Positions 7,937 to 28,801 of a stretch of 64,000 bases of DNA are shown one piece after another. The DNA is from Chryseobacterium sp. FH1. Its GTDB lineage: Bacteria; Bacteroidota; Bacteroidia; Flavobacteriales; Weeksellaceae. The stretch is from positions 1-64,000 of the forward strand of contig NZ_JPLZ01000001.1 of the NCBI RefSeq assembly GCF_000735135.1, read 5' to 3'. Under the pieces are notes generated by a model. That model saw only the letters and a list, made by a program, of their open reading frames with translations, was not told where the DNA came from and searched no databases. How positions within the stretch are numbered: the first letter of the stretch is position 1; every line of letters starts with the position of its first letter. The translations under genes and the position numbers were made by a program.

Positions 7937-8010
7937 GGCTTCGACTCCGCTCAGCCTGACAGTTCGCATATAACAATTTATTAGCGATGTCACTCTCAGC
8001 GGAGTCGAAG
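7937..8010. repeat. Inverted pair of CTTCGACTCCGCTCAG repeats (family B)
   Basis: One element (7937-7962) and an inverted partner (7989-8010, CAGCGGAGTCGAAG) can fold into a long hairpin. Related elements lie at 9277-9301, 10984-11008, 15738-15801, 19003-19026, 22998-23067, about 23739-23762 and 63302-63326. The right element contains an ATG that falsely extends the peptidase frame upstream. Confidence 0.75.
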
Positions 8011-8052
8011 AGTCTCACATTAAATTTAAATAGTAAAAATTCAAATCAAAAT

Positions 8053-15731: not shown

Positions 15732-15737
15732 AAAAAT

Positions 15738-15801
15738 CTTCGACTCCGCTCAGACTGACACGTTTTTCTTATTTGAGATGTCATGCTGAGCGGAGTCGAA
15801 G
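15738..15801. repeat. Inverted pair of family B repeats
   Basis: CTTCGACTCCGCTCAG at 15738-15753 and the inverted CTGAGCGGAGTCGAAG at 15786-15801 can form a hairpin. The pair lies between hutH and the GNAT gene, and the right arm holds an ATG that falsely lengthens the GNAT frame. Confidence 0.75.
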
Positions 15802-15824
15802 CACATTTAATCATCTTTATATTA

Positions 15825-22977: not shown

Positions 22978-22997
22978 TTTTAAATATATTGTTAACA

Positions 22998-23067
22998 CTT
23001 CGACTCCGCTCAGTGTGACATCGTATATCATTTCATTAGAATTGTCAGGCTGAGCAGAGTCGAAGCC
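22998..23067. repeat. Inverted pair of family B repeats
   Basis: CTTCGACTCCGCTCAG (22998-23013) and the inverted CTGAGCAGAGTCGAAG (23050-23065) lie between parE and the DUF4130 gene. The left element contains the false start of the long DUF4130 frame. The right element continues into the duplicated tail of the radical SAM gene. Confidence 0.75.
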
Positions 23068-23073
23068 TTTAAA

Positions 23074-23103
23074 TTAAAACAAAGTCAACTTCTGAGAAAA
23101 TTG
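23074..23103 (-). pseudogene. Duplicated 3' tail of the radical SAM gene
   Basis: The minus strand reads codons for QFSQKLTLF and a TAA stop. The intact radical SAM gene at 23768 ends QFSQQLTLF and TAA. Eight of nine residues agree, while several codons differ only at silent positions (TCT/TCC, TTG/TTA, CAA/CAG). Both copies are followed by an AAATTTAAA-like spacer and a family B element. It begins five bases after the parE stop. It is a fragment, not an expressed gene. Confidence 0.7.
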
Positions 23104-23108
23104 TTAAA

Positions 23109-23405
23109 TTAAAAATATCTCGGAACATCTCGACTTCCGTGGAGCACTCTTACAATTCGGATATCATTGTCCAAAATCCTGTAGAAAATGAGATGGTGGT
23201 CTTTTGGAAAGCTGTACAAACCTATTTTTATTTCATTTCGCGCTTTCCCTACTTCTGGATTTGTAAGCAAACTTTGAAAAACGTCTTCAATCTCAGTGAG
23301 ATATTTTTCCGCTTGTTCAAATCCAAACTCATTCATTGTATAATCGAAAATATCTTCCAAATCTACATCAGCAATTTCTGATAGAATGTAGAATTCTTTA
23401 GACAT
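23109..23405 (-). CDS. parE: RelE/ParE family toxin
   Basis: A 98-residue toxin of a type II toxin-antitoxin system. The RelE/ParE fold is shown by LSEIADVDLEDIFDYTMNEF, then FEQAEKYLTEIEDVFQSLL, the PEVGKARNEIKIGLYSFPKD beta strand and the closing FYRILDNDIRIVRVLHGSRD. ParE toxins poison DNA gyrase, while RelE relatives cut mRNA at ribosomes; the ParD partner favours the first. It overlaps the antitoxin gene by eight bases. The stop is followed directly by a copy of the radical SAM gene tail. Confidence 0.9.
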   Translation of the reverse strand: MSKEFYILSEIADVDLEDIFDYTMNEFGFEQAEKYLTEIEDVFQSLLTNPEVGKARNEIKIGLYSFPKDHHLIFYRILDNDIRIVRVLHGSRDVPRYF

Positions 23406-23634
23406 TGCTATTATCTTTCTTCTTAGATTTGATGATATCTTTTATCGACCTGAAACTTGAATTACCATCCCAACCTTTCTCAATTTCATTTCTCAAATCC
23501 TGAATAATGCGATGGCGATAAACTTCGTGGAGACGCAAAGCATCACGTACAACCTCGCTGGCATTCTGAAAATCCCCAGACTCTATCTGTTCGGAAATAT
23601 AATTTTCCTGCTTTTTTGTGAAACTGACATTCAT
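23398..23634 (-). CDS. parD: ParD family antitoxin
   Basis: A 78-residue antitoxin. Residues 1-45 form the ribbon-helix-helix DNA-binding domain (MNVSFTKKQENYISEQIESG, then NASEVVRDALRLHE), a ParD hallmark. The C-terminal half wraps the toxin. Antitoxin-first order and an eight-base overlap with parE are standard. A TAAATTTG box with an overlapping imperfect palindrome (23668-23686) lies upstream, as expected for autorepression by the ParDE complex. Confidence 0.9.
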   Translation of the reverse strand: MNVSFTKKQENYISEQIESGDFQNASEVVRDALRLHEVYRHRIIQDLRNEIEKGWDGNSSFRSIKDIIKSKKKDNSNV

Positions 23635-23667
23635 TTTAAATTCTTTCCTCGAAATTACAATTAATAT

Positions 23668-23686
23668 CCAAATTTAGCAAATATGG
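23668..23686 (-). promoter_or_regulatory. parDE promoter with overlapping operator-like palindrome
   Basis: The minus strand holds a perfect TAAATTTG (23669-23676). It lies inside the imperfect palindrome CCATATTTGCTAAATTTGG, whose arms match except at one position. An operator over the -7 box would block transcription when bound by ParD. Confidence 0.45.
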
Positions 23687-23738
23687 ACATATGAAAATGA
23701 TTCTTTTATAATGTCAAAAGCGATATTATTTCCTGTTT

Positions 23739-23762
23739 GTCAGGCTGATGCTCGCAAAGCCC
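23739..23762 (-). repeat. Diverged family B repeat after the radical SAM gene
   Basis: On the plus strand TGTCAGGCTGATGCTCGCAA then AGCC is the inverted, GCTCGC variant of the family. It aligns with the element at 23042-23067, and both adjoin a copy of the radical SAM gene tail. Confidence 0.6.
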
Positions 23763-23767
23763 AATAT

Positions 23768-25024
23768 TTAAAATAAAGTCAACTGCTGGGAAAACTGATT
23801 TTGGAACTTGGATTGACTTCCGCCGATAATTAATTTTCTCAAATTCAAATCGGTCAAATGTTTCAAGAATGGATTGCCATAACTAAAATCGATGAAATAT
23901 TTTGCACGATTGACAGCTGCACCTAACTTTTTCAAATTATCAATATTCAAAACCTGGAAACGTCTGGAACTGACAATCTTCATCGCCGTTTTCACTCCAA
24001 TTCCCGGAATTCTTAGAATCATTTTGTAATCCGCCGTTTGAAGATTGACAGGAAATTGGTCTAAGTGACGCAACGCCCAACTCAATTTTGGGTCCACTTC
24101 CAAATCCAGAAATGGCATATTGGAATCCAAAATCTCATCCGCTTTGAAACCATAAAAACGCATCAACCAATCGGATTGGTACAGACGATTTTCCCTCAAA
24201 ACAGGAACTTCCGCAGTGATTGCCGGCAAGCGATTGTCCGACGTGACAGGAATATAACCCGAATAATAAACGCGTTTCATTCCGTAATTTTGGTAGAAAT
24301 GGTCGGCGACTTTGATGATTTGCAAATCGTTTTCGTTGGTTGCGCCTACAATCATTTGTGTGGATTGACCGGCTGGCGCGAACTTCGGAACGCTTTTGAT
24401 GATTTTCTTCTCGTCTTTATATTGTTGAATTCCTTTTTGCACGATTCGCATCGGTTGTAGCATATCTTCCCGATTTTTGTCCGGCGCTAAAAGTTTGAGG
24501 CCAGATTCAGTCGGAATTTCAAGATTAACGGAAAGCCGGTCAGCGTAAAGTGCGGCTTCCTGCATCAAAATATCACTTGCTCCAGGAATCGATTTGAGAT
24601 GAATATAACCATTGAAGTTATGTTCGTTTCTCAGTTTTTTCGCGACACGAACCAAACGTTCCATCGTAGTATCTGCATCTTTGAAAATCCCGGAACTCAA
24701 GAACAAACCTTCGATGTAATTTCGGCGGTAAAAACTGATGGTCAAATCCACCACTTCTTCCACCGTGAAAGCGGCACGTTTGATGTCATTCGATTTTCTG
24801 GAAACGCAGTAGATGCAATCGTAAATGCAGTGGTTCGTCAAAAGGATTTTGAGTAGCGAAACGCATCGTCCATCCTCTGTGTAAGTATGACAAATTCCAC
24901 TGGCTGAACTGTCGCCCAATCCCCCATTATTTTTCCTTTTTCCGCCACTTGATGAGCAAGAAACGTCGTACTTTGCAGCATCAGCAAGTATTTCCAGTTT
25001 TTCTTTTGTGCGGTCAAAGTTCAT
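23768..25024 (-). CDS. Radical SAM protein, putative DNA modification/repair (TIGR03916 type)
   Basis: A 418-residue radical SAM enzyme. The 4Fe-4S cysteines are C66, C70 and C73 in CIYDCIYC, a CX3CX2C motif, preceded by SGICHTYTEDGRCVSLLKIL, which is typical of this family. The C-terminal part contains a helix-hairpin-helix-like segment (MILRIPGIGVKTAMKIVSSR), a common non-specific DNA-binding element. The family is tied by gene neighbourhood to DUF4130 and uracil-DNA-glycosylase-like proteins, hence the putative DNA repair label; chemistry is unproven. The DUF4130 partner lies downstream beyond the parDE module, and the last nine codons recur at 23074-23103. Confidence 0.88.
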   Translation of the reverse strand: MNFDRTKEKLEILADAAKYDVSCSSSGGKRKNNGGLGDSSASGICHTYTEDGRCVSLLKILLTNHCIYDCIYCVSRKSNDIKRAAFTVEEVVDLTISFYRRNYIEGLFLSSGIFKDADTTMERLVRVAKKLRNEHNFNGYIHLKSIPGASDILMQEAALYADRLSVNLEIPTESGLKLLAPDKNREDMLQPMRIVQKGIQQYKDEKKIIKSVPKFAPAGQSTQMIVGATNENDLQIIKVADHFYQNYGMKRVYYSGYIPVTSDNRLPAITAEVPVLRENRLYQSDWLMRFYGFKADEILDSNMPFLDLEVDPKLSWALRHLDQFPVNLQTADYKMILRIPGIGVKTAMKIVSSRRFQVLNIDNLKKLGAAVNRAKYFIDFSYGNPFLKHLTDLNLRKLIIGGSQSKFQNQFSQQLTLF

Positions 25025-25135: not shown

Positions 25136-26491
25136 TTAAACTTTATCAAAATATGCATTATATTTAGAAATATAATGGTCAAATTTTTCATAGGCAATTC
25201 TCAAACGATTGAAATTATTGTGTAAAAGCATACTTTTCTTACTTACAATTCTTATATCATTTTTTAAATTAATTATTTGAAACTGATAATCTTTTAATAT
25301 TTCCTCATCATTCAATTCTTTCATTATAGACTCAATCCTATTTATTTCTTCATAAAATAATGTTATCTGATTTTCATAAAGTGGTTTTAGAATGTCATAC
25401 TCTTCCTTCTTATCTAAGTAAATGAGGGTTATTCTCTCAAACTCTTGTAATGCAACAGGAAAAAACATTTTTGATATCTTTTCAATTTCTATAATATAAG
25501 ATTGCAAATTAATTAAGTCATTAATTTTAGTAATATCTTCAATAAAATCAATTGCGCCTAAAATTTTCTCTGTTCTAAATTCAAGCAATTCTTCTCCTCT
25601 CAAATTGACTCTTTTAAATGCTGGTATTTCATTTAAATTATTTTTTGAATAAATGTCATAAAAATCAAAATTATCATATTTTGAAATATTGATTAACCCT
25701 TCAATCATCAATCTCAATTCATCAATAATATAATTTTGAATAAATGTATCTAAATCATCTTCAATTAATTTAATTGTTTTATATGCAAAATCAACAACTT
25801 CATTCCAAGAACTATAGAATATGATTTTTTTATTCAAATCTCCTATTGAGTGATATTTTTTTGTATAACCATTTATTTCAAAAAATTTACAAAATCTATA
25901 ATATAACCAATCCGAAAAGGGTGTTATATTAACATTCTTATATTTAATAGTTACATAAAAATAACTTGCTCTTCCATAGCCGAAATTACTTTTAACTTCA
26001 AGACTAAAGTCTTCAGGGATTTGATATTTTGGATTTGACCAGCCTCCAATTTTATTTGAAATAATGAGAACATTCTTAGTTTCTCTTAATTTGGAAAAAA
26101 ACAAGTAATAATTAATTATATTTTTACGAGATTCCAAATATTCCAAAGCTTTTACTTTTAAAGAATTATAGGAAAATTCAGTTTTATCTTTTTTAATTTC
26201 AATAGAAAAAAAAGTATTAATTTTTACATAAAAATCAAATAAACTTATTTCAAGATTAACGAATGAATCACTTAAATCTCGACAATATGTAAATGATTTA
26301 TTTTGATATGGAAGAAAGATATTCCTAAGTGTATTATGAAAAAAAATAAAATCGTCTTTATCTTTTATAAATTGATTTTTAAAAACATCTAATTTTTCAA
26401 ATAAAAGATTCGGCACATTCAATTTTTCTTTCAAATATTCATTATTAATTTTTTTTAAAATATAAATTTTTTCATTCTCAAGTGTTTCCAT
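25136..26491 (-). CDS. Hypothetical protein, about 451 aa, AT-rich
   Basis: I do not recognise this protein. It is rich in I, N, K, E and F, has no signal peptide or transmembrane segment, and its C-terminal half (about 330-450) is strongly heptad-like (ERITLIYLDKKEEYDILKPL, then RIESIMKELNDEEILKDY), suggesting a coiled coil. The N-terminal half has a possible mixed domain with IISNKIGGWSNPKYQIPED and VNITPFSDWLYYRFCKFFE. Codon use is markedly more AT-rich than the neighbouring radical SAM and HMG-CoA reductase genes, a sign of foreign origin. The start at ATG 26491 is chosen over an upstream ATG that would extend into the divergent promoter. Defence or stress roles are possible but unsupported. 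Confidence 0.65.
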   Translation of the reverse strand: METLENEKIYILKKINNEYLKEKLNVPNLLFEKLDVFKNQFIKDKDDFIFFHNTLRNIFLPYQNKSFTYCRDLSDSFVNLEISLFDFYVKINTFFSIEIKKDKTEFSYNSLKVKALEYLESRKNIINYYLFFSKLRETKNVLIISNKIGGWSNPKYQIPEDFSLEVKSNFGYGRASYFYVTIKYKNVNITPFSDWLYYRFCKFFEINGYTKKYHSIGDLNKKIIFYSSWNEVVDFAYKTIKLIEDDLDTFIQNYIIDELRLMIEGLINISKYDNFDFYDIYSKNNLNEIPAFKRVNLRGEELLEFRTEKILGAIDFIEDITKINDLINLQSYIIEIEKISKMFFPVALQEFERITLIYLDKKEEYDILKPLYENQITLFYEEINRIESIMKELNDEEILKDYQFQIINLKNDIRIVSKKSMLLHNNFNRLRIAYEKFDHYISKYNAYFDKV

Positions 26492-26587
26492 AAAAGTTAG
26501 TTTTGTAACAACAAATCTACGAAAACTCACGCAAGCTATATTCAGCGTCCACCGAAATCCTTATCTTTACAAACATAAAATTTTACT

Positions 26588-28155: not shown

Positions 28156-28170
28156 TATAAATAGTTGAAA

Positions 28171-28422
28171 ATGGAAACTTTAATTTTAAATAACGGCACA
28201 AAAAAAGATTTGGAGTTGCTTTTAGAGATTGCAAAAAAATTGGGTTTAAACTTAACTTTAGCAAAAAATGAATCTTCTGAAGACAAAAGAAAACGCCTTT
28301 TGGCACTCGCTGAAAAATTAGACAATTCTATCACTCCAAATAATATAACGATGGAGGAAATTGTGGAAGAATGCAACATCGTAAGAAAAGAGAATTATGA
28401 AAAAAGGAAAAATAATTCTTGA
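28171..28422 (+). CDS. Antitoxin of a PIN-type toxin-antitoxin pair
   Basis: An 83-residue protein. It contains an N-terminal METLILNN strand, a helix (LELLLEIAKKLGLNLTLAK) and a charged C-terminal tail (ECNIVRKENYEKRKNNS). It has the size and gene position of antitoxins that precede PIN toxins, but no DNA-binding motif is obvious and I cannot assign a named antitoxin family. It overlaps the toxin start by 26 bases. I use the ATG at 28171 rather than a TTG at 28165. Confidence 0.7.
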   Translation: METLILNNGTKKDLELLLEIAKKLGLNLTLAKNESSEDKRKRLLALAEKLDNSITPNNITMEEIVEECNIVRKENYEKRKNNS

Positions 28423-28801
28423 CACCAATATTTGGGTCTCTTATTTTTTCAACGGAAAGCTTAATGAATTATCTAAAATCATATTAGACAATGAATTGAG
28501 TGTTTTTACAACATCATTTTTAATTGATGAATTGAAAGATGTTCTTTCCAGAGAAAAAATCAAGAAAAAATTAAAATTCTCTTTAGATTCCTATATTGAT
28601 TTTCATCAACAAGTTACCGAACATTTTCAAATTACAGAAGAATTTGAAGGATGTCCTGATCCGAAAGATAATTTTCTTTTCGACCTTGCAATACAGTCAA
28701 AAGCAAAAACAATTGTAACTGGAGACAAAAAACTTCTTGATTTCAAAACTGAAAATATTTCTGTAATCTCACTTTCAGACTTCTTGCAGGATTTACTATA
28801 A
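28397..28801 (+). CDS. PIN-domain toxin (VapC-like nuclease)
   Basis: A 134-residue toxin of the PIN superfamily, a Mg-dependent RNase fold. Acidic residues expected at the active site can be placed in IILDTNIWVSYF (D9), FLIDELKDVL (D and E around 44-46), GCPDPKDNFLFDLAIQ (D94 to D101 region) and VTGDKKLL (D116). The motif spacing and length suit the subfamily annotated as putative toxin-antitoxin system toxin component, PIN family. The antitoxin gene overlaps by 26 bases, giving coupled translation. Confidence 0.88.
   Translation: MKKGKIILDTNIWVSYFFNGKLNELSKIILDNELSVFTTSFLIDELKDVLSREKIKKKLKFSLDSYIDFHQQVTEHFQITEEFEGCPDPKDNFLFDLAIQSKAKTIVTGDKKLLDFKTENISVISLSDFLQDLL

Follow-up and report, generated by a model that had tools for sequence, protein, structure and literature searches.

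The window, that is, the whole stretch of 64,000 nucleotides from Chryseobacterium sp. FH1 that was analysed, carries on its minus strand a radical SAM gene (TIGR03916, rSAM_link_UDG; 23768-25024), followed by a parD antitoxin gene (23398-23634), a parE toxin gene (23109-23405) and a DUF4130 gene (TIGR03915; 22219-22977), the last being a conserved neighbour of radical SAM on its downstream side. Named close relatives at this locus include E. lactis, E. xixisoli and E. tenax, and by these the window most likely belongs to an Epilithonimonas genome. ParE matched PF05016 at 4.5e-21, and ParD matched PF03693 at 2.6e-7 and TIGR02606 with 56.8 bits (cut-off 46.2); by their domains and adjacency the two genes form a ParDE toxin-antitoxin pair of putative activity. 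An imperfect palindrome upstream of parD (TCCAAATTTAGCAAATATGGA, 23667-23687, strand unassigned), similar in nine parDE leaders, is probably the ParD operator, as predicted here. The far part of the window's parD leader also resembles that of a relative, G005 (5 of 1000 shuffles), a resemblance driven in part by a REP-like motif. Elsewhere in the window, a 464-aa protein adjoining the radical SAM gene (25136-26530, minus strand) matched nothing in Pfam (E <=0.1) or in PADLOC (E <=0.01). Two overlapping small genes on the plus strand (28165-28801), the first product without a Pfam match and the second with a PIN domain (PF13470, 4e-16), possibly represent a second toxin-antitoxin pair.

The sequence-only reading of this DNA had proposed that parDE is bracketed by two copies of the radical SAM gene end, and the alignments bear this out. 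The gene ends in QFSQQLTLF-stop (tail 1, 23768-23797), and 5 nt past the parE stop the same strand reads QFSQKLTLF-stop (tail 2, 23074-23103), a relic second copy identical to tail 1 at 26 of 30 bases. Three of the four differences are silent and one changes Q to K, which fits an old event rather than a fresh target-site duplication, as had been argued. A gapped alignment of the two tails extends through the following repeat over 65 columns with a score of 48, which none of 5000 dinucleotide-shuffled pairs reached; the largest shuffle score was 31, so that the earlier concern that the similarity might be no better than that of shuffled AT-rich sequence falls away. The second-best place for the tail 30-mer in the window gave 20 of 30 matches. 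Open reading frames of at least 50 aa between the tails comprise parD, parE and two opposite-strand frames overlapping these, and domain searches found no recombinase among them; this search covered the stretch between the tails only.

What follows the tails is of a different nature. The 60-bp direct repeats described earlier hold up in their tail part, whereas their repeat part is a REP half that occurs throughout the genome; nor are the spacers alike, as had been supposed, TTTAAA following tail 2 and ATATTG tail 1. The repeats behind the tails, once taken to be the same, are differing variants: that after tail 2 (23043-23067, minus strand) has one mismatch to the query used and is paired with an inverted partner upstream of DUF4130 (22996-23020, plus strand), and that after tail 1 (23738-23761, minus strand) is a 24-nt variant with three mismatches to GGCTTCGAGAGCCTCAGCCTGACA. 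With up to two mismatches allowed, the REP half had 85 matches across the window's genome (G000), against none for a control pattern. Only the tail, not the trailing repeat, is specific to this place, because the latter is such a genome-wide element. Sixty of the 85 halves pair up on opposite strands, giving 30 pairs whose starts lie 32-86 bp from each other; REPIN-like pairs in the window lie at 7937-8012, 15736-15803 and 22996-23067. Three Y1_Tnp (RAYT-like) genes scored over the cut-off in the same genome, and one REP half was found in the locus of one of them. With its many halves, inverted pairs and RAYT-like genes, this Weeksellaceae genome carries a REPIN-like system. REPINs are described as inverted pairs of short repeats occurring with a RAYT gene (PMC3116915), and the 30 pairs and three Y1_Tnp genes agree with what that source sets out; the difference is that such a system accounts for the repeat behind tail 2, not for the tail itself. 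In another relative (G004, locus L023), two near-identical REP-type stretches flank parDE, one beginning exactly at the radical SAM stop codon and the other at that of parE.

The radical SAM gene was present in 50 of 118 relatives, 20 of 23 genomes of the genus and 265 of 320 genomes of the family, part of the last being read at the junction. Altogether 148 loci were read downstream of the gene, of which 125 were distinct after removal of 23 duplicates. Three of the 79 first-round loci (L075, L076 and L081), in which the script did not place the stop codon, and two fragments of G001 (L088 and L089) were left out; in nine of the 125 junctions no DUF4130 gene was found in the stretch covered and the first 1400 nt were scanned. 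The gap to DUF4130 was under 30 nt in 30 junctions, many from other genera and two from Epilithonimonas (L021 and L025); these two, in the same genus as the window, are empty junctions, with 5 nt between the radical SAM stop and the DUF4130 start. The other junctions have spacer or cargo there, the cargo being parDE (22), a gene here called X (15), an S41 peptidase gene on the reverse strand (PF03572; four distinct loci) or further cargo. Gene X encodes about 141 aa with a match to PF20383 (DUF6678-like) below its cut-off, and was seen at L010, L012, L020, L027, L090, L107, L108, L110, L111, L114, L115, L120, L127, L136 and L153. It mostly alternates with parDE at the junction, and both it and the S41 gene commonly begin or end 2-3 nt past the radical SAM stop. 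Radical SAM and DUF4130 are conserved neighbours enclosing a cassette that is bound to the locus and exchangeable, and that may be parDE, X, the S41 gene or nothing. In 13 genomes of genus g20 (L090-L102 among the loci), taken as Chryseobacterium from its named loci, the radical SAM protein was 95-97% identical to the window's among the matches listed, the remaining g20 genomes listed giving about 85-89%; the higher values would point either to exchange across genera or to a genus border drawn in the wrong place.

Second tails were recognised in four of the 22 parDE junctions, three clear and one decayed. Scores in G000, G014, G020 and G008 (E. tenax) were 40, 64, 51 and 24, respectively, reached by none of 300 shuffles in each case. 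In all four, 4-5 nt separate tail 2 from the parE stop, so a single old event is the simplest reading. The G008 copy, with 30 of 42 matches, barely exceeds its largest shuffle score (23), and was accepted on the strength of its position and of its full length without gaps. The G014 copy is the longest and cleanest, with 42 nt of which 38 match its own tail 1; against a genus consensus written by eye it matches at 41 of 42 positions, compared with 38 of 42 for the G014 tail 1. Tail 2 is shortened in G000, lacks its stop codon in G020 and is heavily changed in G008. Among these genomes the radical SAM gene diverges by 20-36% at fourfold sites, and an unconstrained tail would therefore be expected to decay; that of G014 is far better kept than such divergence would predict.

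In G000, G020 and G008, a REP-type repeat and DUF4130 come, in that order, after tail 2, and the parDE-less locus L024 reads true tail, REP, DUF4130. Behind tail 2 in G014 (L162) lies instead of the REP a TPR gene of 270 aa, 0 nt from DUF4130, which occupies that position in G014 only among the 23 genomes of the genus. The best match of its product outside G014 in these genomes was 37% identical over part of its length, and 12 others of the 320 family genomes had matches at E <=1e-25, with identities of 32-38% among the matches listed. A recipient allele with the order radical SAM-TPR-DUF4130, which might have given rise to the G014 arrangement, was looked for and none was found.

No second tail was accepted in the other 18 parDE junctions or in 103 distinct junctions lacking parDE; two tails in genomes without parDE had been named as contrary to the proposal. 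For L029, L133 and L150, where parE is interrupted, the region taken as following it begins at a premature stop, and the whole-gap scan covers them. Matches scoring 22-28 in parDE-less junctions fell inside gene X (L114, L010 and L107) or inside the S41 gene (L014, L026, L018 and L016). A spacer match in L100, also without parDE, scored 22 (1 of 100 shuffles) with 30 matches and covers nearly the whole tail directly past the true stop; it was provisionally judged to be chance, as the stretch resembles spacers of other Chryseobacterium loci (L092 and L095). The strongest exception among the 18 is L102, where a match 53 nt past parE scored 30 (4 of 300 shuffles in one run, 0 of 100 in another); since it spans only half of the tail, the first, it was likewise judged to be chance. 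Could AT-rich sequence and a common repeat then have produced tail 2 itself? The REP half is common in the genome, and spacer matches about as heavy as that of G008 occur elsewhere, as in L100 and L102, but the window shuffles and the recurrence of this tail, identically placed, in three further genomes refute chance similarity for the window, leaving it a negligible probability.

Relatives of ParE at E <=1e-15 were found in 25 of the 320 family genomes, namely seven of Epilithonimonas, 16 of g20 and two of a third genus. In 23 of the 23 carriers from Epilithonimonas and Chryseobacterium no more than 1 kb separates this ParE subfamily from radical SAM, and the sole further copy listed in both genera, in G285, is only 40% identical. 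The pair resembles other members of the ParDE type II toxin-antitoxin family in its matches to curated models and its overlapping genes, and differs in being bound to one locus in these two genera. Distances for ParE correlate with those for DUF4130 (Mantel r 0.74, 19 taxa, 0 of 5000 permutations), which fits mainly vertical descent, a re-import of parDE not being required. As ParE is bound to the locus and its distances track those of DUF4130, parDE has long resided at this address and is no recent chooser of the site. In L133 (G278), L150 (G287) and L029 (G041) parE looks interrupted or frame-broken at the same junction, so the pair seems to have been lost in place. A phage or plasmid source of parDE was also considered and set aside: the exact tail pattern occurred in 0 viral contigs, ParE matched no record of the phage collection, and the plasmid search gave 827 records, all below 60% identity.

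Tyrosine recombinases of genomic islands integrate at the 3' ends of genes, leaving the end of the target gene on both sides. The window shares this last feature, and the start of the unrelated cargos X and S41 2-3 nt past the radical SAM stop would also suit a small element that integrates site-specifically, carrying and rebuilding the 3' end of the gene. Such an integration, one of two routes offered in the sequence-only reading, nevertheless finds little to sustain it. Most parDE alleles are one-tailed, a border direct repeat of the target end being seen in four of the 22 junctions only; the 15 X loci and four S41 loci likewise gave no accepted second tail, the copy decays, and the stretch between the tails has no recombinase frame. 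The confinement of the ParE subfamily to one locus and the viral, phage and plasmid searches point the same way. Entry of parDE by means of an integrase is accordingly disfavoured, and site-specific integration is regarded as very improbable.

In a tree of radical SAM and sucC, the four tail-2 genomes form a clade with G021 and G003 (support 100), and these two carry gene X in place of parDE. The successive outgroups G018, G016 and G010 have the S41 gene and lack parDE, so parDE may, judging from this tree, have been regained in the clade. Parsimony costs for parDE absent or present at the root were 6 and 7, 9 and 9, and 12 and 11 for gain weights of 1, 2 and 3, respectively, so that parsimony favours neither state throughout. 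G018 falls outside the clade on the sucC tree (94) and inside it on the radical SAM tree (99); this conflict and the scattered cargo would fit either exchange at the locus or repeated loss. The spacer before DUF4130 appears mosaic by eye, its last 21 nt being common to G020 and the X-bearing G003, which, together with the placement of G018, would again be consistent with exchange at the locus.

The nesting of G021 and G003 among tail-2 genomes invites a further explanation, in which the ancestor had the order radical SAM-tail-parDE-tail 2-X-DUF4130, recombination between the tails removed parDE in G021 and G003, and X was lost in G000, G014, G020 and G008. X begins 2 nt past the radical SAM stop in G021 and G003, and G005 does have parDE followed by X at the site; but none of the loci read has both tail 2 and X, and the 39 nt that separate parE from X in G005 showed no significant likeness to a tail (69 to 893 of 2000 shuffles, depending on the scoring scheme). 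Such an ancestor is considered improbable.

A single position within the tails also bears on the history. Where tail 2 is readable here (G014 and G008) it has TTY CAG AAY, and CAG is likewise found in the tails of other Epilithonimonas loci (L016-L027); CAA stands in the resident tails of G018 and of the clade that includes the window (L009-L015), as it does in four Chryseobacterium tails (L092, L093, L095 and L101). One position in two tails is thin evidence, and the tail is too short for firm dating or placement, but the position would point to a radical SAM allele that is older or different as the source of tail 2. It bears on the main rival to recombination between alleles, a local copying event, according to which parDE was inherited and the final 42 nt or so of radical SAM were long ago copied to a place just after parE, by template switching or slippage, or by tandem duplication followed by deletion. 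Inheritance of parDE is in keeping with the parallel divergence of parE and DUF4130 and with the absence of this ParE subfamily elsewhere in the two genera, save for the G285 copy. On the other hand, a copy bearing CAG would have to predate the change to CAA in the clade, and the successive outgroups lack parDE. Local duplication is therefore thought rather unlikely, though it is the alternative to be taken most seriously.

The reading preferred, by a slight margin over doubt, traces tail 2, as a scar, to recombination between two alleles of the radical SAM/DUF4130 locus. Behind it stand two homologous tails, single-tail and empty alleles, and a locus-bound ParE. In the ancestor of the clade, the incoming DNA would have consisted of the 3' part of a radical SAM gene and then parDE. 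On one side a homologous crossover would have taken place inside the radical SAM gene; on the other, just after parE, the DNA would have been joined illegitimately, lacking extended homology, about 42 nt upstream of the resident radical SAM stop. The incoming tail would thereby complete the radical SAM gene, and the resident tail would stay as tail 2 before the old DUF4130 upstream region, if the direction is as supposed, later decaying in three of the four genomes. The order tail, REP, DUF4130 after parE fits what insertion upstream of a resident tail would leave. Entry of a segment carrying a related gene tail, the other route offered at the outset, is thus the best reading of the second tail, but a donor allele was not found: the nearest parE outside the clade, that of G005, is 82-84% identical in nucleotides to those of G000, G014 and G020 and 79% to that of G008.

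Integration of foreign DNA by homology on one side and an illegitimate join on the other is known as homology-facilitated illegitimate recombination (HFIR), described in the transformable bacteria Acinetobacter baylyi, Pseudomonas stutzeri and Streptococcus pneumoniae (PMC6382021). The import favoured here would share with HFIR, as that source presents it, one homologous side and one illegitimate join; it differs in that it is deduced from an old scar alone, with the junction after parE seen and no donor found.

More broadly, and tentatively, the junction in Epilithonimonas and Chryseobacterium could be an integrase-free site of cassette exchange, where cargos would swap by recombination in both neighbouring genes and imports would occasionally rebuild the radical SAM 3' end, leaving a datable tail scar. 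When a small insert is flanked by two copies of a gene end, an integrase need not be implied, and a short 3'-end scar can record such a cassette exchange. Lacking mobility genes of its own, a toxin-antitoxin pair can stay at one chromosomal address in two genera, and parDE at this fixed address has yet been lost, swapped and perhaps regained.
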